Position numbers and translations under genes: made by a program | NCBI GenBank assembly: GCA_029213065.1 | Contig: JARGPH010000034.1 | Location: forward strand, 30,859 to 64,654 | Source of the DNA: Verrucomicrobiales bacterium | GTDB taxonomy: Bacteria; Verrucomicrobiota; Verrucomicrobiia; Verrucomicrobiales; DEV007 | DNA length: 33,796 bases | Direction: 5' to 3' | Shown: positions 10,003 through 30,862 of the stretch, piece after piece | How the letters are laid out: each line of letters begins with the position of its first letter | How positions within the stretch are numbered: the stretch's first letter is position 1 | Notes under the pieces: generated by a model | The model's database searches: none | Told to the model about the DNA's origin: nothing | Seen by the model: the letters and a program-made list of their open reading frames with translations, nothing else

Positions 10003-10079
10003 CAACAGGGTTGGGTCTTTCATCCAACCCTGTCGCGTCGATGACCCAACCCTGTTGAATCAATGACCCGACCCTATTG
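10003..10079. promoter_or_regulatory. Four 11-bp dyads phased every 22 bp over a sulfatase start
   Basis: The pattern CAAC-N3-GTTG occurs at 10003-10013 (CAACAGGGTTG), 10025-10035 (CAACCCTGTCG), 10047-10057 (CAACCCTGTTG) and 10069-10079 (CGACCCTATTG). The centres are at 10008, 10030, 10052 and 10074, exactly 22 bp apart, about two helical turns. The first and third are perfect dyads; the others have one or two changes. The sulfatase ATG at 10063 lies between the third and fourth. The same motif and spacing recurs at 19982-20014. This looks like an operator array for a dimeric regulator binding one DNA face; a short repeat family is the alternative. Confidence 0.55.
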
Positions 10080-12270
10080 GAAATCTTTCCTTCTCGTAAC
10101 GACTCTCTTAACCGTTTCGATTTGGAGCAATGTTAGATCGGCGGATCAGCCGAACATCGTCTTTTTCTTCACCGACGATCAGACCACGAGCACGATCGGC
10201 TGTTACGGAAACCCGATCGTTCAGACGCCGAACATCGACGGGCTCGCGGAGCGGGGAACGCGGTTCGAAAATGCTTTTGTCAGTCACTCGATCTGCTGGG
10301 TCAGTCGAACCACGATTCTGACCGGTCTTACCGGACGGACCTACGGCACTCAGGGAAACCACGAGCTGGCACGACCTGAAGCGGTGGAGACGCTTTATTC
10401 GGATATTCTTCGAGAGAACGGCTATCGCACCGGCTACTTTGGTAAGTGGCACGCCAAGATGCCGAAAGGGTATAAGCAGCAGGATCACTTCGATGAGTTC
10501 GAGGCAATTGGTCGCAATCCTTTCTACAAAGAGCAGCCTGACGGATCGCTTCGACATGAGACGGAAGTGATCGTGGACCGGGGAATTGATTTCCTGAAGC
10601 GCCATCCCAAAGACAAGCCTTTCGCGCTCAACATGTGGTTCAACGCCTGTCACGCCGAGGACGGCGATCGTCGCCCGGGGATCGGTCATTTCGCATGGCC
10701 CCGCGCCATGGACGGGCTGTATGACGACACCGAGATGTATGCGCCGAAGCTGAATGATCCTGCGATTTTCAATGCGCTTCCTGACTTTCTCAAAACGACG
10801 ATCAATCGAGAGCGTTATTTCTGGCGCTGGAATACGGAGGAGAAATATCAGACTAACATGCGTGCGTATTTTCGCATGGTCAGCGGAATCGACAACGCGA
10901 TCGGCCGCTTTCAGAAAGCGCTTGAAGAGGCAGGTCTCGCTGAGAATACCATCATCGTCTATTCGGCCGATAATGGCTACCACATGGGCAATCGCGGGCT
11001 GGCCGGAAAATGGTCTCACTTTGAAGAGTCTCTGCGTGTCCCCCTGATTGTTGCTGATCCGCGTGTCCCTAAAGAGCAGCAGGGAAAGGTCACGGATGCG
11101 ATTGCTCTCAATCTCGATTTGCCTGCGACCTTCCTCGACTGGGCTGGTGCGGAAGTGCCCGCACGGTATCAGGGGCACAGTCTCAAGCCGATTGTCAGCG
11201 CCGGTGAACCTGCTGACTGGCGGACGGAAAGCTTTCACGAGCACTTCGCGGTCCGAAGTCGTATCCCCGCCTTTGAGGGAATCAGAAACAAGGACTTCAA
11301 ATACGTTCGCTATATCGATGAGGACAATTACGAGTTTTTGCACGACCTCAACAGCGATCCGGATGAGCTCGTGAATCTGGCGAAAGATCCTGAGTTTAAG
11401 AGCACGCTCGAGGAAATGCGTGCACGCACCGATAAGCGCGTTGAGGAGCTCGGCGGACCACTCGAACCGATGCAGCAAAAGCTTGCCGCTTCAACGGTCC
11501 CGCACCCCGAAGCTTCTGCAGCTGTCAGTCAAAGAGTTGGAAAAGACGGGTTCACCAACCTTCTAAACGGCAATAAGTTGAATAACTGGGAGGGTGATTC
11601 GAAATACTGGTCGATCAAGGATGGCGTCCTCACCGGCGTGACTGATGGCTCATTGAAGATGAATCGCTTCATCACCTGGAAAGGATCGACGATTCAGAAT
11701 TTTGATCTCCGCGTGAAAGTGAAAGTGAGCGAGGGCGGAAACAGCGGACTTCAGTATCGCGGTAAGTCGGCTCCGGAGCTCGGGCTCGATATCGTGACGG
11801 GATATCAGTGCGATGTCGTTGCCAATGTTCCGAAATACAACGGGATGCTCTACGAGGAGAGAGGTCGCCGGATTCTGTCCCACACCGGAGAGAAAGTCGT
11901 CGTCGATACGAAGGGGCAACCCTGGGTCGTTGGTGAGATGCCGGTGAAGGAATTCGCTTCCGGTGAGTGGCATGAATACCGTGTCCTCGTCCGGGGAAAT
12001 CATCATCAGCACTGGATCGATGGACACCCCACCGCTGATTTGATCGATCTCGATGAAAAGGGACGTTCCCTCGAGGGTGTCCTCGCGGTTCAGGTTCACG
12101 TCGGGCCGGCGATGGAGATTCAGTATAAGGATTTCAAGATCAAACACCTTCCTGATGATCTTCAGCTCAAGAAGGCAAAGGACGTCACGATCCCGGCTGA
12201 TGCTCACGGGGTGAAGCCTCAAGGCAAATTGCCGAAGGGGTGGAAGCCGCCTGTCTACGGTGAGCAGTAG
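10063..12270 (+). CDS. Secreted sulfatase fused to a C-terminal DUF1080 domain
   Basis: 735 residues. A signal peptide ends near SNVRSA (about residue 27). The sulfatase domain starts with QPNIVFFFTDDQ (metal-binding Asp38 and Asp39) and includes GKWHAKM and a late metal/phosphatase-fold motif YSADNGYH. The position of the formylglycine motif reads CWVSR (Cys78-Arg82) instead of CxPxR, so maturation to formylglycine is uncertain. Residues about 494-700 form a DUF1080 (3-keto-disaccharide hydrolase/LamG-like) domain with FTNLLNGNKLNNWEG and NSGLQYRG, which probably binds or cleaves sugar. The fusion suggests desulfation of a polysaccharide at the cell surface or in the periplasm; the substrate is unknown. 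The ATG lies inside the phased dyad array, and the third dyad is preceded by a second ATGACC like the real start. Confidence 0.9.
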   Translation: MTRPYWKSFLLVTTLLTVSIWSNVRSADQPNIVFFFTDDQTTSTIGCYGNPIVQTPNIDGLAERGTRFENAFVSHSICWVSRTTILTGLTGRTYGTQGNHELARPEAVETLYSDILRENGYRTGYFGKWHAKMPKGYKQQDHFDEFEAIGRNPFYKEQPDGSLRHETEVIVDRGIDFLKRHPKDKPFALNMWFNACHAEDGDRRPGIGHFAWPRAMDGLYDDTEMYAPKLNDPAIFNALPDFLKTTINRERYFWRWNTEEKYQTNMRAYFRMVSGIDNAIGRFQKALEEAGLAENTIIVYSADNGYHMGNRGLAGKWSHFEESLRVPLIVADPRVPKEQQGKVTDAIALNLDLPATFLDWAGAEVPARYQGHSLKPIVSAGEPADWRTESFHEHFAVRSRIPAFEGIRNKDFKYVRYIDEDNYEFLHDLNSDPDELVNLAKDPEFKSTLEEMRARTDKRVEELGGPLEPMQQKLAASTVPHPEASAAVSQRVGKDGFTNLLNGNKLNNWEGDSKYWSIKDGVLTGVTDGSLKMNRFITWKGSTIQNFDLRVKVKVSEGGNSGLQYRGKSAPELGLDIVTGYQCDVVANVPKYNGMLYEERGRRILSHTGEKVVVDTKGQPWVVGEMPVKEFASGEWHEYRVLVRGNHHQHWIDGHPTADLIDLDEKGRSLEGVLAVQVHVGPAMEIQYKDFKIKHLPDDLQLKKAKDVTIPADAHGVKPQGKLPKGWKPPVYGEQ

Positions 12271-12361: not shown

Positions 12362-13291
12362 ATGAAAAGATTTTCTCTCACTCTCCTGAGCCTCGCTGTT
12401 TCCTTTTCTCTCCACGCGGAAGAGAAGAAGGCAGCGCCCAAGCCCAAGGCGCCCGCCCCGACGGAGGCGAATGTTTCCTACGGGCCGCATCCGGAGAATG
12501 TGCTCGATTTCTGGAAGGCAGAAGGCGAAGGACCGCGTCCGTTGCATGTCTACATCCACGGCGGAGGCTGGAGAGGTGGAACGAAGGCGGTGAAGCCCGG
12601 CCAGATGGATAGCTATTTGAAGCGCGGCGTTTCCTGTATTTCGGTGGAGTATCGACTGACCCCGGCCAATCCTCTCCCTGCGCCGGTTCATGATGCGGCA
12701 CGCGCGATTCAGTTTATCCGGACGAAAGCGAAGGAGTGGAATATCGATCCGGACAAGATCGTGCTCACCGGAGGCAGTGCCGGCGCCTGCACCTCGATGT
12801 GGCTGCTTATGCACGACGACCTTGCTGATCCCGATGCAGAAGATCCGGTCCTGCGGGAGTCCACGAGAGTAACCGCGGCTGCCGTATCCGGCGGCCAGAC
12901 ATCGATCGACCCGAAACAGATCGTTCCGTGGTTGGGCGAGAATGTTCTCAAGCACCTCATGATCGCCAATGCCGTGGGTGAGCCGAACGCGGAGGAGGCT
13001 CTCAAGAATTACGAAAAGCATGAGGCACTTTATAAGGAGTTCTCCGCTTACAATCATGTCAGCAAGGATGACCCTCCACTTTACATGGTCTATGGAAACG
13101 ATATGACGCTTCCTTCAAAAGACGCCGGGCACGGGATTCACCATCCGGTCTACGGGGTGAAGATGAAGGAGAAGTGTGACGAGCTCGGGGTTGAGTGTCA
13201 TCTCCAGATTTCAGGTGTCTCCAAAGCGGAGGGGTATTCGAGCAGCACGGATTTTGTGCTCAAGAAGCTGGGTGTGATCCCTGAAAAGTGA
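12362..13291 (+). CDS. Secreted alpha/beta-hydrolase esterase
   Basis: 309 residues with a signal peptide (MKRFSLTLLSLAVSFSLHAE) followed by a Lys/Pro/Ala-rich linker (residues 21-34). The oxyanion motif HGGGW is at residues 66-70 and the nucleophile elbow GGSAGA has Ser139. The later YGNDMTLPSKDAGHGIHHP region probably supplies the Asp and His. This is the BD-FAE/acetyl-esterase type of alpha/beta hydrolase, common beside polysaccharide-degrading genes, where it removes acetyl or feruloyl groups. The substrate is inferred from context only. It has its own promoter-like sequence. The next gene is 51 nt downstream on the same strand. Confidence 0.87.
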   Translation: MKRFSLTLLSLAVSFSLHAEEKKAAPKPKAPAPTEANVSYGPHPENVLDFWKAEGEGPRPLHVYIHGGGWRGGTKAVKPGQMDSYLKRGVSCISVEYRLTPANPLPAPVHDAARAIQFIRTKAKEWNIDPDKIVLTGGSAGACTSMWLLMHDDLADPDAEDPVLRESTRVTAAAVSGGQTSIDPKQIVPWLGENVLKHLMIANAVGEPNAEEALKNYEKHEALYKEFSAYNHVSKDDPPLYMVYGNDMTLPSKDAGHGIHHPVYGVKMKEKCDELGVECHLQISGVSKAEGYSSSTDFVLKKLGVIPEK

Positions 13292-13342
13292 TCGGGAAAT
13301 TGGAGGTGGTAATATCCGCTTTTTCAAAGAACAGTCCGTTCT

Positions 13343-14122
13343 ATGAAGCCCTCTGTTTGCATCGATGCCGTTTTCGAGAATCTGCCTGTCGCCGAAGCCT
13401 GTGCCAAGGTGAAGGCTTCGGGGATTTCCGCGATTGAGTTCTGGGCGTGGTGGGAGAAAGACCTCGATAAACTGGAGGCTGCGGTGGAGGCGTCGGACTT
13501 AACGATCGCGGCCTGTTGCACGAAGTTTATCAGCCTGACGGATCCCGCGCTCCGTGCCGATTACATCGAAGGGCTTCGTGAGTCCATCGTCGCGGCGAAA
13601 CGACTGGGCTGTGAAATTCTCATCTCCCAGGTCGGTGATTTTCGTGTCGGCGTTTCAGCGGATGAGCAGCATCAGTCACTCGTCGACGGGCTCAAAGAGG
13701 CCGCACCGCTCCTGGAGGAGGCCGGTGTTACCCTCGTGATTGAGCCGTTGAATGAGTTGGTTGATCACGCCGGGTATTTTCTGGTCCAAAGCGAAGAGGC
13801 TTTCGATATTATCGACGAGGTCGGAAGTGATCGTGTCAGGGTGGTTTTTGACATCTACCATCAGCAAATCAGTGAGGGAAATCTCATTTCAAACATTGCT
13901 GCGAACATCGATAAAATTGCTCATTTTCACGCGGCGGGGAATCCCGGTCGCCACGAACTGCAAATAGGCGAGATTAATTACCCTCAGGTTTTCGGAGCGA
14001 TTGAGAGTTCGGGCTACGATGGCTACATCGGCCTCGAATACTGGCCCGTAGCCGAAGACCCGACCGGTCCGCTCAGTGAGGTCGCTTCGTTGCTCGGTGC
14101 GACGAACCAGGAGGACTTTTAG
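13343..14122 (+). CDS. Hydroxypyruvate-isomerase-like TIM-barrel protein
   Basis: 259 residues, typical for AP_endonuc_2-fold sugar isomerases. Metal and catalytic residues expected for hydroxypyruvate isomerase are visible: Glu134 in VIEPLNE, Asp170 and His173 in VFDIYHQQ, His196 in HFHAAG, the strong family motif NPGRHELQIGEINYP (200-214) and Glu232 in GLEYWP. Cytoplasmic, with no signal peptide. It probably isomerises hydroxypyruvate and tartronate semialdehyde or a related keto sugar, which would link sugar-acid breakdown to glycerate. No companion glyoxylate-pathway gene is in the window, so the role stays at family level. Confidence 0.87.
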   Translation: MKPSVCIDAVFENLPVAEACAKVKASGISAIEFWAWWEKDLDKLEAAVEASDLTIAACCTKFISLTDPALRADYIEGLRESIVAAKRLGCEILISQVGDFRVGVSADEQHQSLVDGLKEAAPLLEEAGVTLVIEPLNELVDHAGYFLVQSEEAFDIIDEVGSDRVRVVFDIYHQQISEGNLISNIAANIDKIAHFHAAGNPGRHELQIGEINYPQVFGAIESSGYDGYIGLEYWPVAEDPTGPLSEVASLLGATNQEDF

Positions 14123-14169
14123 TTTTCCTACAGTAGCGAGGCGAAACTCGTTCCGCTGGCTCGAGACTA

Positions 14170-14192
14170 CCCAATTGCGGAGGGGCAATGGG
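14170..14192 (+). other. Hairpin just upstream of a -35-like box
   Basis: CCCAATTGC (14170-14178) and GCAATGGG (14185-14192) pair over 8 bp with one bulged A. The hairpin ends next to TTGACG of the candidate promoter for the cytochrome gene and follows the isomerase by 48 nt. It could be a terminator for the isomerase or a regulator site. Confidence 0.3.
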
Positions 14193-14221
14193 TTGACGGT
14201 TAGGTCTGTGCCTTGCAAGAT
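14193..14221 (+). promoter_or_regulatory. Candidate promoter close to the cytochrome dehydrogenase start
   Basis: TTGACG (14193-14198), 17-bp spacer, CAAGAT (14216-14221), then 6 nt to the ATG at 14228. The -10-like box is weak; support comes from the repeated geometry seen at other starts in this window. Confidence 0.35.
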
Positions 14222-14227
14222 CCTGCC

Positions 14228-17053
14228 ATGTTGATTCGACTTTTGATAGGTGTGATCGGGTGTTCGGCCTGCTTTCCCCTTGCTGCCGCAGATTTCCCTG
14301 AACCTTACAATACGGAGGAAGCGGCGGCTCCTCCCATGAGCGCTGAAGAGGTTGTCAAAACTGCGAAGTTACCTGAGGGCTTTCACCTCGAAGTCTTTGC
14401 TTCGGAGCCGCAGGTGCAGCAGCCAATCTCAATTGCTTTTGATGAGCAGGATCGCCTCTGGGTTGCGGAGTGTTACACCTTCGCTGAGCGTCCGCGGCGG
14501 TGGGACCTCGAACTCAGTGACCGCATCCTTGTGCTCGAAGATGAAGACGGTGACGGCAAAGCGGACAAACGCACTGTCTTCTGGGATGAAGGGAAAAGAA
14601 TGACGAGCGCGATTCCGGGGCACGGAGGTGTCTGGGCTTTGTGCGCTCCGCAGCTTTTGTTCATTCCGGACGCAGACAACGACCTCGTTCCCGATGGTGA
14701 TCCGGTAGTCGTCCTCGATGGTTTCGACGCTGAGAAGATTGGGCATAACATTGCCAATGGGTTGAAGTGGGGACCTGATGGTTGGCTTTACGGTCGGCAC
14801 GGTATCGTGGAGACTTCATGGGTGGGGGCATCGGGATCGCCGAAGTCGCAACGAACGCCGCTGAACACTTCGATCTGGCGTTATGATCCGATTGGCAAAA
14901 AATTCGAAGTGTTTTGTCATGGTGGAACCAATCCGTGGGGGCTTGACTGGGATAGAAATGGGCAGCTTTTTTACACGAACACGGTGATAGGACATCTCTG
15001 GCACGGGATACCCGGTGCTTACTATACGCGCATGTTCGGGACGCATCTGAATCGCCATGCCTACGAATTGATTCCGCATACGGCGGACCACTATCACTGG
15101 GACAACGGTTCTGAAAAGTGGAGCGATATCCGCGAGGGGATCACCGATACGACTTCAGCGCTGGGTGGTGGTCATGCTCACATGGGCTGTCTCATTTACG
15201 AGGGCGGTGTCTGGCCCGAGGAGTATCACGGAGATCTTTTCGCCTGCAATCTTCACGGACGGCGCGTCAACAGGGACCACCTCGAGAAAGAGGGCGTTGG
15301 CTACGTGGCGCATCACGGCGAGGACTTTCTCATGATTGAAGATCCCTGGTTTCGCGGGCTCGATCTCATTACGGGACCGGATGGTCAGGTTTGGATGAAC
15401 GACTGGTCGGATACGGGGGAGTGTCATGACAATGATGCGATTCATCGCACCAGTGGCCGAATTTACCGGATCGTCTACGATGGTCCTGACAAAGGCACAC
15501 CTGCGCCGAATCGCCCTCAGTGGCTGACTTCGCGGGCTGATCCTGATTTCGGGATGAAGGATATCGAGGCGCTTTTGAATTCCGGCGACGAGGCGAAGGT
15601 GGCGATGGGTGTTCGCTGGTTGGGAGAGGACGCGGGTGGCGAAGAGGGGACGCTTGCGACGCTTTTGAAAATTGCGGAAGACAGTCCCGCTCCGCTCGTG
15701 CGGTTGGAGTTGGCAGCCTCGCTGCAGCTTTTGAGCGGTAAAGACCGGTTTGCTTTGGCTGAAGTGCTTTCTCAAGAGGCACAGGATGCGGGAGATCGAC
15801 AGCAGTCCTTGATGATCTGGTATGGGGTTGAAGCGGTCGTTCCTGAGTTCTCCGCGCTTGCGGTTGCCCTGGCGGCGAAATCAAAGTTGCCCGATGTGAC
15901 GCGGCTCGTGACCCGTCGACTCGTCGAAGATCTTGAGGCGGCTCCGGGGCCTGTGAATGAACTTCTCTCGCAAGCGCTGTCTTCTGAAAAGCAAATTCAG
16001 TTGTCGATTTTGAGCGGGGTTGAAAGTGCTCTCGAGGGCTGGGGAAAGGCGCCTCAGCCGGCAGCGTGGAAGTCGTTTTCTGAGGCGTTGGCTGCGTTGC
16101 CTGAGGCGGCTGAGTCAGTGCAGGGGCTTGCTGTTCTTTTTGGCGATGGCAGGGCGAGGGACGAACTTTTTGCGATGGTGAATGATGAAGAGGCTGACCC
16201 GGTCGCGAGACGGTCGGCTTTGGGCAGTTTGCTCCGTCAACCGGATGAGGCTTTGCTCGCCCTCCTCAAGAAGCTGGTCAATGATCGCGTTGTTGGATTG
16301 GAAGTGGTTCGCGGTTTCGCCGCTTATGATGATCCGGATGTTCCGAAACTTGTCATGGGGCACTGGCAGCGATTCCCCCTGCACCGGGGAGCCGCGGCGG
16401 ACACGATGGTTTCGCGTCCTTCCTACGCCTCTGCTCTGCTCAGTGCGGTGGAGAAAAAGTATATCCCACGGGATGCGATTACCCCGTTTCAGGCGAGGCA
16501 GATCGTGAGCTTGAATAACACCTCTCTGACTGAGCGGCTTAAGAAAGCGTGGGGGGAAGTTCGCGAAACGCCGGCGGAGAAAAAAGAGGAGATTCGCTCG
16601 TGGAAATCCCTTCTCACCTCCGATGTTATTGGAGCGGCTGATGCGAAGCAGGGAAAAATTATTTTTTCTCAGACCTGTGGTGCCTGTCACCGGCTTTACG
16701 GCGAGGGTGGCGCGATTGGCCCCGATCTCACAGGCAGTGACCGTCACAGCATTGACTATCTGCTCGATAACACGGTCAATCCCAATGACGTCGTTCCCGC
16801 TGACTACATGCTCACCGTTTTCACGATGAAAGATGGGCGCGTCGTCTCAGGGGTGGTTCCTGAAGAGAATGAAAAGACCGTGTCGGTTCAATCGGCTGCA
16901 GAGATGATTTCCCTGAGTGTTGATGAGATAGAGAAGCGGGAGACCATGCCCGTCTCGCTGATGCCGGAGGGTTTGTTGAAAGCGCTCGGAGAAGACGCGG
17001 TCAAAGATCTCGTGGCCTACCTCATGACGAGGGGACCGATTTCCGATGAGTAG
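14228..17053 (+). CDS. PVC-type membrane-bound dehydrogenase with C-terminal cytochrome c domain
   Basis: 941 residues. A signal peptide (MLIRLLIGVIGCSACFPLAAA) precedes a beta-propeller-like dehydrogenase domain containing LPEGFHLEVFASEPQVQQP, RLWVAECYTF, HNIANGLKWGPDGWLYGRHG and GGHAHMGCLIYEGG. A HEAT-like helical middle follows (about residues 440-780). The C-terminal domain binds one heme through CGACH (Cys817, Cys820, His821), followed by IGPDLTGSDRHSIDYLLDN and late Met residues as possible axial ligands. This architecture is a hallmark of Planctomycetota and Verrucomicrobiota and probably oxidises a sugar in the periplasm; substrates are mostly uncharacterised. Its last 8 bp overlap the next sulfatase gene, implying translational coupling. 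An upstream in-frame TTG (14213) was rejected because it adds only five residues before a good ATG. Confidence 0.9.
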   Translation: MLIRLLIGVIGCSACFPLAAADFPEPYNTEEAAAPPMSAEEVVKTAKLPEGFHLEVFASEPQVQQPISIAFDEQDRLWVAECYTFAERPRRWDLELSDRILVLEDEDGDGKADKRTVFWDEGKRMTSAIPGHGGVWALCAPQLLFIPDADNDLVPDGDPVVVLDGFDAEKIGHNIANGLKWGPDGWLYGRHGIVETSWVGASGSPKSQRTPLNTSIWRYDPIGKKFEVFCHGGTNPWGLDWDRNGQLFYTNTVIGHLWHGIPGAYYTRMFGTHLNRHAYELIPHTADHYHWDNGSEKWSDIREGITDTTSALGGGHAHMGCLIYEGGVWPEEYHGDLFACNLHGRRVNRDHLEKEGVGYVAHHGEDFLMIEDPWFRGLDLITGPDGQVWMNDWSDTGECHDNDAIHRTSGRIYRIVYDGPDKGTPAPNRPQWLTSRADPDFGMKDIEALLNSGDEAKVAMGVRWLGEDAGGEEGTLATLLKIAEDSPAPLVRLELAASLQLLSGKDRFALAEVLSQEAQDAGDRQQSLMIWYGVEAVVPEFSALAVALAAKSKLPDVTRLVTRRLVEDLEAAPGPVNELLSQALSSEKQIQLSILSGVESALEGWGKAPQPAAWKSFSEALAALPEAAESVQGLAVLFGDGRARDELFAMVNDEEADPVARRSALGSLLRQPDEALLALLKKLVNDRVVGLEVVRGFAAYDDPDVPKLVMGHWQRFPLHRGAAADTMVSRPSYASALLSAVEKKYIPRDAITPFQARQIVSLNNTSLTERLKKAWGEVRETPAEKKEEIRSWKSLLTSDVIGAADAKQGKIIFSQTCGACHRLYGEGGAIGPDLTGSDRHSIDYLLDNTVNPNDVVPADYMLTVFTMKDGRVVSGVVPEENEKTVSVQSAAEMISLSVDEIEKRETMPVSLMPEGLLKALGEDAVKDLVAYLMTRGPISDE

Positions 17054-18614
17054 ATCAAAGATGAAATTATTTCCCGTTGCCGTCCTCCTGAGTTTGGGAT
17101 TCGTCACCTTCGCGGCAGCGGACCTGAGCCGCCCTAATATTGTTGTAATTCTTGCTGATGACATGGGGTGGGGCGACCCGCAATGTTATCAAGCTGAGTC
17201 AAAGATTCCGACGCCGAACCTGGATCGACTTGCTGCTGAGGGAATGCGGTTCACGGATGCGCACACGCCGTCGTCGGTTTGCACTCCAACACGCTATACG
17301 CTCCTGACGGGTCGCTACTGCTGGCGAACTTCGCTTGAGAAGGGTGTCCTCGATGGTTTCGGTCCACCACTGATCGGGGCTGATGAATCGACTCTGGCAA
17401 CGATGCTGAAGGGCATTGGTTACGACACCGCCTGTGTCGGGAAGTGGCATCTTGGAATGCAATGGCATGATCTCAGCGGAGAGCCCATCGGCGAGCGGGG
17501 AGCGCAGCGATTTCGTCCCGGCGATGACGTCGACTACCAGCGTGACATCACCGGGGGGCCGAATGATGTCGGCTTTGACAGCTACTTCGGGATTTCTGCG
17601 TCGCTCGATATGGCTCCCTATTTGTATCTTCGAAATCGTCGGGCAGAGACACTTCCCACGGAGCGCCACGAGGAGATTAAGGGGACGCTTTTTCTCAACG
17701 GGGTTTCAGGAGTGAAGTCCCCCGGGTTTGATATTCATGAGGTGCTGCCCCGATTCGGGGATGAGGCGGTGAAACTGATTGAGGATCGCAAAGGGAAGGA
17801 GAAACCGTTTTTCCTTTATCTTCCTTTGAATTCGCCACACCTGCCTGTTTCTCCGGCGGGATTCTCAAAAGGAAAAAGCGAGGCCGGTGCTTACGGCGAT
17901 TTTGTGTGGGAGACGGATCATGCTGTGGGCCGTGTTCTCAATGCGCTCGATGAGGCGGGCATTGCCGACAACACCCTCGTTCTTTTCACAAGCGACAACG
18001 GCGGGCTCTGGCACTGGTGGGATTTTTCGGCGGACGATGACGGCGGAAAAATCCCCATGACCGGGCGCGGCCAGTATGTGAAAGACTTCGGTCATCAGAG
18101 CAATGCGAAGTGGCGCGGGACGAAGGCTGATATTTACGAAGGAGGGCATCGTGTCCCTTTTATCGTGCGGTGGCCCCGGATGGTGGAGCCGGGAAAAGTG
18201 AGCGATGCCCTCGTCGAGCTGACGGATTTTTTCGCGACGGTGGCTGCCATCACCGGTGAGCCTGAGACGGTCGGGACTTCGGGGATGGACAGCTTTTCGT
18301 TTTTGCCGGTTCTGAAAGGGGAGGCTGAGACGGCGAGGCCTTTTTCGGTGCACCACTCGCTGAGCGGGATGTTTGCTCTGCGGGAGGGGAGTTGGAAAAT
18401 GGTCGAGGGGCGCGGGTCAGGCGGTTTCACCCGCCCGCGCAAGACGAGCGAGCTTCCCGGGAAGCCCACTGAGCCGGAGGGGCAGCTCTATGATTTGAAG
18501 ATTGATCCTCAGGAGCGGATCAATCAGTGGGCAAACGAAAGCGACCGGCTTGTGCGTATGCAGGAGCGGTTGGAATCGGTCAGGGAGGGATCAGGTCGAT
18601 CTGCGGCTCGCTGA
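17046..18614 (+). CDS. Secreted sulfatase (arylsulfatase family)
   Basis: 522 residues with a signal peptide (cleavage near FAAA, residue 25). The sulfatase fold starts at RPNIVVILADDMGWGD with metal Asp38 and Asp39. The formylglycine motif is CTPTR (Cys79-Arg83), followed by YTLLTGRY. GKWHLGM and FTSDNGG supply further active-site positions. The family hydrolyses sulfate esters after conversion of the Cys to formylglycine by a separate enzyme not present here. The ATG overlaps the end of the cytochrome gene by 8 bp, so oxidation and desulfation are probably linked. Downstream lies an inverted-repeat element at the convergent junction. Confidence 0.93.
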   Translation: MSRSKMKLFPVAVLLSLGFVTFAAADLSRPNIVVILADDMGWGDPQCYQAESKIPTPNLDRLAAEGMRFTDAHTPSSVCTPTRYTLLTGRYCWRTSLEKGVLDGFGPPLIGADESTLATMLKGIGYDTACVGKWHLGMQWHDLSGEPIGERGAQRFRPGDDVDYQRDITGGPNDVGFDSYFGISASLDMAPYLYLRNRRAETLPTERHEEIKGTLFLNGVSGVKSPGFDIHEVLPRFGDEAVKLIEDRKGKEKPFFLYLPLNSPHLPVSPAGFSKGKSEAGAYGDFVWETDHAVGRVLNALDEAGIADNTLVLFTSDNGGLWHWWDFSADDDGGKIPMTGRGQYVKDFGHQSNAKWRGTKADIYEGGHRVPFIVRWPRMVEPGKVSDALVELTDFFATVAAITGEPETVGTSGMDSFSFLPVLKGEAETARPFSVHHSLSGMFALREGSWKMVEGRGSGGFTRPRKTSELPGKPTEPEGQLYDLKIDPQERINQWANESDRLVRMQERLESVREGSGRSAAR

Positions 18615-18645
18615 CGTCACCCCGCCACGTCGCTAAGTCAGGTTT

Positions 18646-18758
18646 GTGGCGGCGAGTGCCAACGAGTGGCCGTCGGGGCCACAAACCATTGGTTCCCCCG
18701 ACTGTTTGTCGAAGCTGACAGGCAGGGCGTTCCACTCGCTGGGCGCTCGCCGCCACCT
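18646..18758. repeat. Inverted-repeat element A (113 bp) at a convergent junction
   Basis: The left end GTGGCGGCGAGTGCC plus AACGAGTGG matches the reverse complement of the right end, CCACTCGCTGGGCGCTCGCCGCCAC read in two parts, over about 24 positions with few changes. An inner GTCGGGG/CCCCGAC pair adds a second stem. It fills the space between the sulfatase ending at 18614 and the Gfo/Idh gene ending at 18765. Shares its ends with the elements at 27219 and 30883. It encodes nothing and may serve as a bidirectional terminator. Confidence 0.75.
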
Positions 18759-18764
18759 GAACCA

Positions 18765-19958
18765 CTACTTGAGTCGGGTCAAAGCATTGGTCCGGTTCTC
18801 GAGGGGGATGGAGACACTCTTTCCTCCCTGGCTATGAGATTCGAAGGCACCGAGAATCATTTCGAGAATGATTCTGCCGTCTTTTTCGTTACAAAGCGGA
18901 GCGCGATCTTCTTCGATGCATTCGATGAGGTCGTAGGCGGCCGCCTGGTGCGACATCACAAATTTACCGATTCCGGGATCCGTGTCGGGTTTCCCAACTC
19001 CGCCTGTCGTGATCGGCTCCCATTTGCGAGCTTCTTTGTTCGGGTGAAACGGGCTGCCTTTGAGGATGTGCGCGAGCGGGTTTCGATCGGCTCGCAGATC
19101 GATAATGCCTTCGGTTCCGATCAGTTGAAGGCCGAACCCTGCCTCGCGAGAGCCTGCTTCCTGAATGGAGTCGAAAAACACGGGGATGTCACTTTCGGTG
19201 GTGTAGCGGGCATGAACTTCATTACCGGCAAGTGGGCCGAGCCCTTCTGCTCCGTCTTTGACGTCGGCGGCGGTAACAGGTCGTTTGTCCTGAAAGATCG
19301 TGGCGGAGCAGCTCGTTGGCGCTCCCGTGAAGTAGTTGGCGAGGCTGAGGAGATGGGACCCTAACACCCACATGTCCTGGCTTCCGCCTCGACCATCCTC
19401 TTTCCCACGAAGCCTGACTTCGAGCCATTTTCCGATCGCACCATCTTCGACGAGTTTCTTCACGATTGGCAAAACAGGGTGGTAGCGATTCCGGTGCGCA
19501 ATCGCGAGTTTCGTCCCCGATGCTTCGCAGGCGGCGACGATGTCATCCGCTTCGGCAAGGTCGCGACAGAAGGGTTTCTCCACGTAGATGCCTTTTGCCC
19601 CGGCCTTGATTGCCGCGAGGATCATGGCGTGATGCTGATCGGTGTGCCGCAGCGCAACGGAAACGATATCGGGCTTCGTTTCATTGAGAAGCTTTTCGTA
19701 GGAAGCGAATCCCTGTTCCGGTTTGAGGCCCAGTTTCTTTACCACTTTGGCGAGACCTTCCGGGACAGGGTCGGAAACGGCGATAATCTTTGTTTCCGGG
19801 ACGGTTTTCCAAAACGAGTCCATCGCGTGACCAAAATCTCCCCGTCCGGTGTGACCGAGGACTCCAACCGTGTAGGTTTTCTTTTCAGCGGCGAAAGCGC
19901 CCATTGATAAAAAGGGAAGTGCCGTGGAAGCGGCGAGAAAGTGACGGCGATTGCTCAT
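18765..19958 (-). CDS. Exported Gfo/Idh/MocA oxidoreductase
   Basis: 397 residues. The N-terminus MSNRRHFLAASTALPFLSMGAFA is a twin-arginine (Tat) type leader, consistent with export of a folded, cofactor-loaded protein. The Rossmann motif VGVLGHTGRGDFG (about 31-43) binds NAD(P), and VEKPF (126-130) is the family's EKP signature. IAHRNRYHP and the C-terminal alpha/beta domain follow. Family members oxidise, reduce or epimerise sugars and their derivatives. It is divergent from a second Gfo/Idh gene, sharing a 167-bp intergenic region with a pair of phased dyads. Confidence 0.9.
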   Translation of the reverse strand: MSNRRHFLAASTALPFLSMGAFAAEKKTYTVGVLGHTGRGDFGHAMDSFWKTVPETKIIAVSDPVPEGLAKVVKKLGLKPEQGFASYEKLLNETKPDIVSVALRHTDQHHAMILAAIKAGAKGIYVEKPFCRDLAEADDIVAACEASGTKLAIAHRNRYHPVLPIVKKLVEDGAIGKWLEVRLRGKEDGRGGSQDMWVLGSHLLSLANYFTGAPTSCSATIFQDKRPVTAADVKDGAEGLGPLAGNEVHARYTTESDIPVFFDSIQEAGSREAGFGLQLIGTEGIIDLRADRNPLAHILKGSPFHPNKEARKWEPITTGGVGKPDTDPGIGKFVMSHQAAAYDLIECIEEDRAPLCNEKDGRIILEMILGAFESHSQGGKSVSIPLENRTNALTRLK

Positions 19959-27517: not shown

Positions 27518-29017
27518 TTAAATCTCCGGCTTCTCAATTGTGGGGCGCCATGGCCTTGGTTTCGGCTCGCGGTAATCGGGATGGTCTTTGGGGGCATGGT
27601 GGCGTCGTGCCTTTGATCCTCCCCCATTCCAGATGTCGTATTTGGGATCGGCGTAGTAATCAAAGTAGTGCATCAGTTGCTCCGAGAGTTCGGCCTGCTT
27701 CGCTGCATATTCGGTCTGCCCGAAAAGGTTGAATCGTTCCATCGGATCATTCTTCATGTCGTAAAATTCTCCGGGGCCATCGGGTGAACGTCGTTCGACA
27801 TACTTCCAGTCTTCGGTCCGGAGAGAACGGCAGCTTTCCATTTCGTAATACATTTCGGTCTCCCAGGGGATTTCTTCACCTCGCAGGATGGGGGCGAAGT
27901 TCCGTCCGGGTAGTTTGGGCTCTTCAGGGATTCTCTCATCGAGCCCGAGGTAGCTGAGAACACTCGGCATGAAATCGTAGTTGGTGACCATTTCGCTTCG
28001 TTGTCCCGCGCTGACCGCACCGGGTTGCCAGAAGAGAAGCGGGATTTGCATCATCATGTCATGAGCGGCCATCGGCTTGGTGTGGTCGCCCATACCGAAG
28101 AATCCGTTTTGGCCTCCCATCCAGCCCTGATCTCCGGCGAAGATCACAAGGGTGTTTTCGTCGAGGCCGTTTTTTCGAAGTGTTTCAAAAATCGCCCCGA
28201 CCCCGTCGTCGACGCCGCTGACTTCAGCCGCGACTCGTCTGATGCTGTCGATGTTGTTGTGATAGTTGAGATTTGAATACTGCCAGGGGTGTGCCGTATC
28301 GCGGGGAAATGAAGGCAGGTACTTGTCGGCGTAGAACTCGGCCCAGCGGTTCTTCGCGGGGCGCAGGAGCAGGTTGCTCAGGCAATAGGGGCCGTTGTAG
28401 GCGAGGTAGAGAAAGAACGGCTTTTCACCGTCCTTGTTCTGCTCGATGAAATCAATGCCGCGCTCGGTCCAGAGATCGGTCATGTATTTGGGAGACTTTT
28501 CAATGAGCTTCCCGTCGAGAATGACGGGGTCCTCATACATGCTGCCGGTGCCGCCACGGGGCATCGTCGCCCAATAGGAAAATCCATCCGGCGGGTTCAT
28601 GTTATCGCCGAGATGCCACTTTCCGCTGAGCCCGCAGACGTAGCCTTCGGAATGGAGAATCTCCGGAAGGGTGTCAAACTCTTCGAGCGCGTAATAGGCT
28701 TCGTCGCCCATCATGTATTTTTGGTCGAGGAAGGAATGAATCCCGTGCTGAGAGGGAAGCAGTCCCGTGAGAAAAGTGGCGCGGGTCGGGGAACAGACCG
28801 GGTTGCTCGACATCGCCCGCATGAATTGCGTTCCCTCGGACGCCATCCGGTCGAGGTTCGGCGTCTGGATGTCCTTGTTCCCGTAGCAGCCCAGGGTCCA
28901 TGCCCCGTGGTTGTCTGTCAGGATAAAGATGACATTCGGCTTTTTCTCTTCACCGGTTGAGGTGCTGACGATGAGAAAAAGTGAGAGAAAGACCCAATGA
29001 AGAATGCCGGTTTTCAT
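27518..29017 (-). CDS. Secreted sulfatase
   Basis: 499 residues with a signal peptide (MKTGILHWVFLSLFLIVSTSTG). The sulfatase fold begins KPNVIFILTDNHGAW; the formylglycine motif is CSPTR (Cys75-Arg79) followed by ATFLTGLLPSQHG. GKWHLGD and FAGDQGWMGG are present. The second residue of the usual DD metal pair is Asn (Asp35-Asn36), and the late DNG is DQG, both seen in some sulfatase subfamilies. Substrate unknown. Converges with the FAD protein across element B. The start is 100 nt from the end of the DUF3817 gene on the same strand. Confidence 0.92.
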   Translation of the reverse strand: MKTGILHWVFLSLFLIVSTSTGEEKKPNVIFILTDNHGAWTLGCYGNKDIQTPNLDRMASEGTQFMRAMSSNPVCSPTRATFLTGLLPSQHGIHSFLDQKYMMGDEAYYALEEFDTLPEILHSEGYVCGLSGKWHLGDNMNPPDGFSYWATMPRGGTGSMYEDPVILDGKLIEKSPKYMTDLWTERGIDFIEQNKDGEKPFFLYLAYNGPYCLSNLLLRPAKNRWAEFYADKYLPSFPRDTAHPWQYSNLNYHNNIDSIRRVAAEVSGVDDGVGAIFETLRKNGLDENTLVIFAGDQGWMGGQNGFFGMGDHTKPMAAHDMMMQIPLLFWQPGAVSAGQRSEMVTNYDFMPSVLSYLGLDERIPEEPKLPGRNFAPILRGEEIPWETEMYYEMESCRSLRTEDWKYVERRSPDGPGEFYDMKNDPMERFNLFGQTEYAAKQAELSEQLMHYFDYYADPKYDIWNGGGSKARRHHAPKDHPDYREPKPRPWRPTIEKPEI

Positions 29018-29420: not shown

Positions 29421-29479
29421 GACGATGAGAGTTGTCTTTCAGTATCACTCTGACAGTATCTTACGCAAGAATTGAGAAG

Positions 29480-30862
29480 ATGATTATCAAATTACCGATT
29501 ACGATTTTGAGCGCCCTCGGGTTGCTGTTTGTTTCCGCAGGGGCGGCGGAGAAGCCCAATATTCTTTTCATCATGGCCGATGATCTCGGGATCGAAGGCC
29601 TGAGTTGCTATGGGAGTGATTCCTACGAAACGCCTCATCTTGACCGGCTTGCCGATGAGGGGATGAGGTTTTCGCATGCGTATTCGCAGCCTTTGTGCAC
29701 ACCGACACGGGTGCAGATCATGACGGGGAAGTACAACCATCGGAACTGGTTGTATTTCGGAATCCTCGATCCGGGAGAGCGGACCTTCGGGCACCTTATG
29801 CAGGACGCGGGTTACAAAACCTGCATCGCCGGTAAGTGGCAGCTGCAGTCATACGATCCACCGGAGTGGCCCAATTCCGAGCGGCGGCGTGGCACAGGGA
29901 TGAAAGTGGAGGACGCGGGCTTTGACGAGTGGTCGCTCTACCATGCCTGGGAGACCGAGGACAAAGGTTCCCGCTACGCGAATCCCAGCTTTGATTGGAA
30001 CGGGACATTACAGGGGCCGCTAGACGGGCAGTATGGGCCCGATACCTCCGTTGAGTTTCTCTTAGACTGCTTCGAAAACCGGAACGGGAAACCGCTCTTC
30101 GCCTATTTCGCGATGGCCCTGCCGCATTGGCCCATGGTCCCGACGCCGGATTCTGAGGAGTGGAAGGAGCCGGCGCAGCGTCTCGATGAGAGCGTCGATT
30201 TCTTTCCTGACATGGTCCACTACATGGACAAGGTCGTGGGTCAGCTTGTTGATGGGCTTGTGGAGCTGGGTGAGCGCGAGAATACGATCGTGATCTTCTA
30301 CGGAGACAACGGCACTGATATGAGGGTGACCTCACAGTTTCGCGGCGAAGCGATTCAGGGTGGAAAAGCCTCGCCACTGCAAACGGGGATACGTGTCCCT
30401 CTCATCGCGAACTGGCCCGGGAAAATTAAGGCTGGGGAAGTCTCAAGTGACCTCGTCGATGCCTCCGATTTCCTCCCTACTTTTGCTTCACTTGCCGGTT
30501 CAGAGATTCCGGGAGACTGGGTTCACGACGGGATCAGTTTTGTTCCGGAGCTTTTGGGTGAAGAGGGGCCAAAGCGGGAGATGGCTTTCTTCTGGTATGA
30601 TCCGAGGCCGGGCTGGGATAAGGAGAAGTTTTCACGTCATGTTTTTGCTCTGAATCATGATTACAAGCTTTTCTCTGACGGCCGTCTCTACGATGTAAAA
30701 GGGGATGGACTGCGGGAGGAATTGCTGGATGTCTATAGCCTGACAGGTGAACAAAAGTTACAGCGCGACGCTCTCGCGGATTACATGCAGAAGATGATGT
30801 CGGTTCCGATGTCGGCGTCGGCAAAGATTGAAGTCGATGCCTATGGCGATCCCGTGGAGTGA
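29480..30862 (+). CDS. Secreted sulfatase with GKWQ in place of GKWH
   Basis: 460 residues from the ATG at 29480, which starts a normal signal peptide (MIIKLPITILSALGLLFVSAGAA); an upstream TTG at 29432 is rejected. Metal Asp34-Asp35 in FIMADDLG, formylglycine motif CTPTR (Cys73-Arg77) and YGDNGTD are all present. The usual GKWHLG is GKWQLQ, replacing an active-site His with Gln, and the protein is shorter than the other three. This points to a distinct subfamily or altered specificity. Converges with the formate dehydrogenase gene across element C. Confidence 0.9.
   Translation: MIIKLPITILSALGLLFVSAGAAEKPNILFIMADDLGIEGLSCYGSDSYETPHLDRLADEGMRFSHAYSQPLCTPTRVQIMTGKYNHRNWLYFGILDPGERTFGHLMQDAGYKTCIAGKWQLQSYDPPEWPNSERRRGTGMKVEDAGFDEWSLYHAWETEDKGSRYANPSFDWNGTLQGPLDGQYGPDTSVEFLLDCFENRNGKPLFAYFAMALPHWPMVPTPDSEEWKEPAQRLDESVDFFPDMVHYMDKVVGQLVDGLVELGERENTIVIFYGDNGTDMRVTSQFRGEAIQGGKASPLQTGIRVPLIANWPGKIKAGEVSSDLVDASDFLPTFASLAGSEIPGDWVHDGISFVPELLGEEGPKREMAFFWYDPRPGWDKEKFSRHVFALNHDYKLFSDGRLYDVKGDGLREELLDVYSLTGEQKLQRDALADYMQKMMSVPMSASAKIEVDAYGDPVE

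Follow-up and report, generated by a model that had tools for sequence, protein, structure and literature searches.

A Pro-free CWVSR motif conserved in a sulfatase family next to S1_25

The FGE (formylglycine-generating enzyme) consensus is given as CXPXR (PMC4505483). In the SulfAtlas alignment, the residue at +2 from the catalytic Cys is Pro in 87% of sequences and Ala in 369 of 4058, with any other residue below 1%, and the updated signature, [CS]-[STACGMV]-[PA]-[STAGF]-R, is typical, not defining (PMC5066984). A rule of the form [CS]-x-[PA]-x-R guides both the recognition of genomic sulfatases and the design of aldehyde tags.

The closest described system to the protein analysed here, P0001, is SulfAtlas subfamily S1_25, represented by the 6hr5 module of a Formosa GH78/sulfatase. 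This module is the best sequence match of P0001 (294 bits) and the best match of its predicted structure by VIA-align (Z 46.9, 2.2 Å over 363 residues), with other S1 sulfatases following, and as the nearest solved relative it has the motif CAASR, which is also Pro-free. Subfamily S1_25 includes SWF4, a reported fucoidan exo-3-O-sulfatase, and loss of the active-site His called HisA (K-F/Y-G) is reported as characteristic of the subfamily (PMC6315715). The S1_11-type N-acetylglucosamine- and galactose-6-sulfatases (5g2v, 7lha, 7p24), about 30% identical to P0001, come second to S1_25 by sequence and by VIA-align, but first by Foldseek E-value, where 5g2v leads and 6hr5 is ninth. The motif of 5g2v is SGPSR, i.e. 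with Ser and Pro.

The CWVSR protein and its active site

P0001 is encoded in the window, by which we mean the whole stretch of DNA analysed (33,796 nucleotides), and combines a sulfatase with a 3-keto-disaccharide hydrolase (DUF1080) domain whose PDB relatives are 4jqt and 3u1x (Table 1). Codons 78-82 read TGC TGG GTC AGT CGA, which confirms CWVSR as real. As the preliminary description had stated, Val thus replaces Pro in this protein, whereas the window's three remaining sulfatases all keep Pro (CTPTR, CSPTR and CTPTR). The sequence departs from the updated SulfAtlas signature at +1 (Trp) as well as at +2 (Val).

Table 1. Features of P0001 and the other sulfatase reading frames of the window
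Feature	Position	Strand	Evidence
Sulfatase / 3-keto-disaccharide-hydrolase fusion (P0001), 735 aa	10063..12270	+	ORF, Pfam, full-length relatives
Probable N-terminal secretion signal, residues 1-27	10063..10143	+	Translation judged by eye; low model confidence there
Pfam Sulfatase domain PF00884, residues 30-363	10150..11151	+	168.9 bits
D38 D39, metal-site aspartates	10174..10179	+	Invariant in 10-row alignment; at least 90% in 78-row alignment
Formylglycine motif CWVSR (C78 W79 V80 S81 R82), start of helix 78-87	10294..10308	+	Codons, relatives, model
K128 W129 H130 (GKWH; His absent from characterised S1_25 enzyme)	10444..10452	+	Alignments
H197, active-site His	10651..10653	+	Alignments
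D303 N304, second half of metal site	10969..10974	+	Both invariant in 10-row alignment, kept in 34 fused relatives; D303 invariant in 78-row alignment
SGSH_C domain PF16347, residues 310-458	10990..11436	+	Pfam
K316, active-site Lys	11008..11010	+	Alignments
3-keto-disaccharide hydrolase domain PF06439 (DUF1080), residues 496-694	11548..12144	+	116.3 bits over 1-187 of 187, above cut-off
Other sulfatase, CTPTR	17046..18614	+	ORF
Other sulfatase, CSPTR	27518..29017	-	ORF
Other sulfatase, CTPTR	29432..30862	+	ORF

The rest of the active site is that of an S1 sulfatase, with residue roles assigned by alignment to those described for S1 enzymes in the available texts of PMC5066984 and PMC6315715. 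P0001 has both the metal-site residues (D, D, D, N/Q) and the sulfate-site residues (K, H, H, K), and ten aligned members agree without exception at ten residues (D38, D39, C78, R82, K128, H130, H197, D303, N304 and K316), which bears out the preliminary observation that the other active-site motifs are retained. The Cys nucleophile and the Arg at +4, C78 and R82, are also invariant in the 78-row alignment. Thirty-four fused relatives keep C78, R82, K128, H130, H197, D303, N304 and K316, with H130N in L376, where GKWH becomes GKWN, as the sole exception.

A model of residues 1-470, built for the sulfatase domain only from 78 alignment rows, has a pLDDT of 91.4 and a pTM of 0.91 (a full-length model from 10 rows, with a pLDDT of 57.6, was set aside). 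This confident model predicts a normal S1 sulfatase fold with Cys78 heading the catalytic helix, residues 78-87, and both the fold, as compared with 6hr5, and the Pfam domain are those of S1 sulfatases. P0001 shares with the S1 sulfatases that carry CxPxR or CxAxR the fold, the Cys nucleophile, the Arg at +4 and the metal- and sulfate-site residues; unlike them, its fused family has Trp at +1 and Val, Ile, Met or, rarely, Ala at +2.

Conservation of the motif and the surrounding clade

Relatives were sought in genome contigs from one genome per species, across 84,980 species, using six peptide patterns that excluded the motif. The scan gave 266 relatives of P0001, and the motif, counted in the best 80 of these, was readable in every one: CWVSR in 77, CWISR in one (L081), CWMSR in one (L105) and CWASR in one (L110). 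The motif of the fused family is thus C-W-[V/I/M/A]-S-R, and since Pro is found at +2 in 0 of these 80 relatives, a private mutation is ruled out; the homologue comparison proposed in the preliminary description accordingly identifies CWVSR as a conserved feature of a subfamily. The five codons are spelled in 34 distinct ways, with all four Val codons in use and Trp79 as TGG in 80 of 80, and so it is the amino acids that are conserved, not the DNA. In all 80, the match reaches residue 726 or further, indicating that they retain the DUF1080 fusion. Judged by record title, their hosts are planctomycetes, verrucomicrobia (Opitutales, Akkermansiaceae and others) and a few MAGs titled ‘bacterium’. 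Counting stand-alone relatives as well, matches at 1e-150 occur in 44 of 74 genomes in the family of the window's own host. A literature search for CWVSR found no related account.

A set of 50 loci comprised 34 fused proteins (CWVSR 29, CWISR 5), which partly overlap the best 80 so that the two sets are not independent, and 16 shorter matches. Among the shorter matches, L379 (70% identity, CWVSR) stops at a contig edge, L310 (58%) has CWVSR and L362-L364 (56-58%) have CWASR, while eleven at 49-54% identity have CWVGR (6), CWVSR (3) or CAASR (2). The Lys-His motif varies alongside: GKWH is found in the fused family, the CWASR forms, L310 and L361, GKEH accompanies CWVGR, GKTH occurs in L373 and L374, and GKFG in the CAASR forms. 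The six CWVGR/GKEH sulfatases L367-L372 all lie in open frames of 945-1442 aa and are therefore probably joined to other domains.

A tree of 183 sulfatase domains groups the CWVSR fusion proteins, their shorter relatives and the CAASR forms in one clade of 28 tips with a support of 0.999, in which Pro never occurs at +2; the adjoining branches are CGPSR and CMASR proteins of the window's own genome. (Two truncated duplicates of own-genome sulfatases are in the tree, and leave this clade unaffected.) The CAASR/GKFG protein L366, about 50% identical to P0001, matches 6hr5 at 367 bits, compared with 294 bits for P0001 itself. P0001 differs from the S1_25 enzymes in having CWVSR and in keeping HisA (GKWH, versus KFG/KYG in SWF4 and 6hr5), and its fusion partner is DUF1080, whereas that of the Formosa enzyme is GH78. 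Because HisA is kept, we dropped membership of S1_25 for P0001 and place it beside this subfamily, not inside: it belongs to a Pro-free clade next to S1_25, sharing the well-supported clade with the CAASR/GKFG relatives.

Proposed maturation in the host and possible substrate

The conserved Cys pair of FGE is a copper site. Sixteen places in the window's own genome match PF03781, the Cys pair being found by sequence pattern only in L111, a protein of 319 aa (286 bits) with the Cys-pair sequence GGSFLCHLSYCNRYR; the host thus has an FGE with the catalytic pair. PMC12123546 deals with the copper site of FGE in general. An anSME was not found in this assembly, which is 96% complete, the best TIGR03942 match scoring 161 bits against a cut-off of 349.45. 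We dropped this weak match (an L132-type radical SAM protein) as a candidate anSME, as it is far under the cut-off, and by eye it resembles another SPASM-type enzyme. A dedicated maturase beside the gene was likewise rejected, the own FGE protein having no match at 1e-15 in 80 loci, searched with flanks of up to 8 kb, shorter at contig ends.

Sites without Pro occur among the sulfatases that this FGE would serve. Among the matches listed, the genome has 117 distinct readable sulfatase sites by a profile-aligned count, of which 116 keep Cys and Arg, and the +2 residue at these 116 is Pro in 99, Ala in 9, Val in 4, Ser in 2 and Thr in 2. Seventeen of the 116 listed sites therefore lack Pro, CWVSR included, and Val occurs in CWVSR, CGVSR, CVVSR and CSVAR. 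The other listed sites with neither Pro nor Ala at +2 are L164, L024, L178, L197, L204, L161 and L196, reading CGVSR, CVVSR, CSVAR, CSSSR, CHSSR, CSTSR and CSTFR, respectively; one sulfatase, L183, reads CRPSL and is without the Arg. In 37 other sulfatases that flank relatives of P0001, the +2 residue is Pro in 28, Ala in 8 and Thr in 1.

With 16 other Pro-less sites among the matches listed beside a single Cys-pair FGE, such sites look routine in this host, and CWVSR is one of several Pro-free sites that the host must mature if those enzymes work. The poor maturation suspected in the preliminary description finds no support in view of these sites and the conservation of the motif, and nothing in the catalytic residues points to the different role that it suggested. 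P0001 is probably an active, formylglycine-dependent S1 sulfatase of the Pro-free clade next to S1_25, matured by the host FGE. It is most likely matured and catalytically ordinary, and we infer maturation by the host FGE as the simplest account, with L111 serving all sulfatases, CWVSR included.

In the mechanism that we propose, the secreted precursor would be recognised mainly via Cys78 and Arg82, a small or hydrophobic residue being tolerated at the Pro position, and Cys78 would be oxidised to formylglycine by the host's only detected Cys-pair FGE, of the aerobic, copper type. The hydrated formylglycine would then take sulfate off a sulfated sugar; the same glycan may also be acted on by the fused DUF1080 domain. 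W79 and V80 may be maintained because they pack or touch substrate near the catalytic helix, and not because they mark the protein for a special maturase, given that hosts in which FGE, anSME or neither was detected have essentially one and the same motif.

By analogy with S1_25, the substrate could, as a guess, be a sulfated deoxy-sugar glycan of the fucan or ulvan type. The DUF1080 fusion is a weak hint of a coupling between desulfation and a 3-keto-glycoside route. Window neighbours include a Gfo/Idh/MocA oxidoreductase and a sugar-isomerase-like TIM barrel, but neither was found near relatives of P0001 (80 loci, flanks of up to 8 kb), which is why we regard the hint as weak. The region 12362-19958 of the window resembles a sugar-degradation cluster (BD-FAE esterase-like, sugar-isomerase-like, DUF7133/cytochrome c, a second sulfatase and Gfo/Idh/MocA), the genes of which were mostly not found beside the relatives in the same 80 loci and flanks. 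At the left end of the window, positions 1-920 hold a tandem array of about eight repeat units of 112 bases.

Family hosts without a detected FGE or anSME

Maturases were also sought in 49 family-holding genomes, many of them incomplete MAGs, namely the own genome and 48 of those that contributed the 80 loci (30 loci and L086 lie outside this set). Sequence patterns served to look for the Cys pair. A Cys-pair FGE was found in 24 of the 49 (the own genome and 23 others) and an anSME above the TIGR03942 cut-off in four, three of which also have FGE; besides these four, 29 of the 49 have weak TIGR03942 matches (E ≤ 0.001, under the cut-off). By eye, L302 looks QhpD-like and L303 MoaA-like. Neither a Cys-pair FGE nor a TIGR03942 match above the cut-off was found in 24 of the 49 genomes, many of which are MAGs; these 24 do not include G032, which has an anSME as well as part of an FGE where a contig ends. 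Across these maturase classes, the motif is CWVSR, bar a few V-to-I/M/A variants.

All PF03781 places (E ≤ 1e-6) were read in three closed planctomycete chromosomes, CP036432 (G010), CP036526 (G031) and CP036272 (G041), and the Cys pair was found in 0 of 28 (10, 10 and 8, respectively). TIGR03942 likewise gave nothing above the cut-off in the three, which have at least 138 PF00884 matches each. Among 24 sampled sulfatases of G041, all have the Cys and the Arg, with Pro at +2 in 22, Ala in one and His in one. In the other FGE-negative genomes, absence was judged from comparison with L111 (thresholds of 1e-22 or 1e-38); matches at these levels in G021, G023 and G028 are without the Cys pair. The absence of FGE is not universal in the order of G010, as 71 of its 118 genomes have an FGE match at 1e-60 (FGE being judged here by E-value) and five an anSME. 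Seven of the 118 carry the CWVSR family, two of them (G053 and G084) with an FGE match and five with none.

In the literature, searched mostly outside subscription papers, we found no report that bacteria of this kind lack the catalytic pair. In PMC6388578, PF03781 genes of its Kiritimatiellales are counted as FGE-domain genes, and six FGEs are cited for Rhodopirellula baltica, a genome outside those examined here. For Escherichia coli, a third bacterial system has been recorded (Benjdia 2007, as cited in PMC6189696). The FGE- and anSME-negative hosts may have a remote form of FGE, or a maturase that belongs to neither family. Tentatively, the sulfatase-rich Pirellulaceae and relatives that have neither Cys-pair FGE nor anSME, with about 140 sulfatase matches each, might rely on another formylglycine-forming enzyme, one that takes CxPxR as well as the Pro-free CWVSR, although we hold this to be somewhat less probable than its converse.

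It is a separate and unlikely proposition that Cys78 is converted to formylglycine by a maturase that belongs to neither the FGE nor the anSME family and is common to the hosts of the CWVSR proteins. The 24 genomes with neither known maturase detected, the three closed chromosomes rich in sulfatases, the CxPxR sites of 22 of the 24 sampled G041 enzymes and the third system recorded for E. coli could all be read in its favour. However, 24 of the 49 genomes, including that of P0001, have a Cys-pair FGE and need no special route, and the question of the missing maturase concerns all sulfatases of the remaining hosts, not the CWVSR family alone. The other route raised in the preliminary description is thus not needed in the own genome, and keeps its place for hosts in which no known maturase was found.

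Two further readings are more improbable still. The enzyme might work with Cys78 itself as a slow nucleophile: a choline sulfatase with CxPxR can remain unmodified in E. coli and still show slow turnover (PMC6189696), so that sequence gives no guarantee of maturation. This is very doubtful for P0001, given that Arg82 and the remaining formylglycine-type active site are conserved, and slower catalysis would not explain why the motif is so strictly conserved. Alternatively, P0001 might be a sulfatase that has decayed or is non-catalytic and persists because it binds glycan, the chemistry being left to the DUF1080 domain. While the retention of the fusion in all of the best 80 of 266 relatives fits this, the metal- and sulfate-site residues are invariant, and the stand-alone relatives without DUF1080 (L310 and L361-L364) keep CWVSR or CWASR, which makes such a role just as hard to credit.

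For the reading that we prefer, an active sulfatase matured by the host FGE, a large and strictly conserved family breaks the [CS]-x-[PA]-x-R rule at two positions, which indicates that the rule is too narrow. The CWVSR family offers natural peptides for probing the real requirements of formylglycine-forming enzymes. It also points to planctomycetes that are rich in sulfatases but in which no known maturase was found; if these do use another formylglycine-forming enzyme, that enzyme could be probed cleanly with this family.
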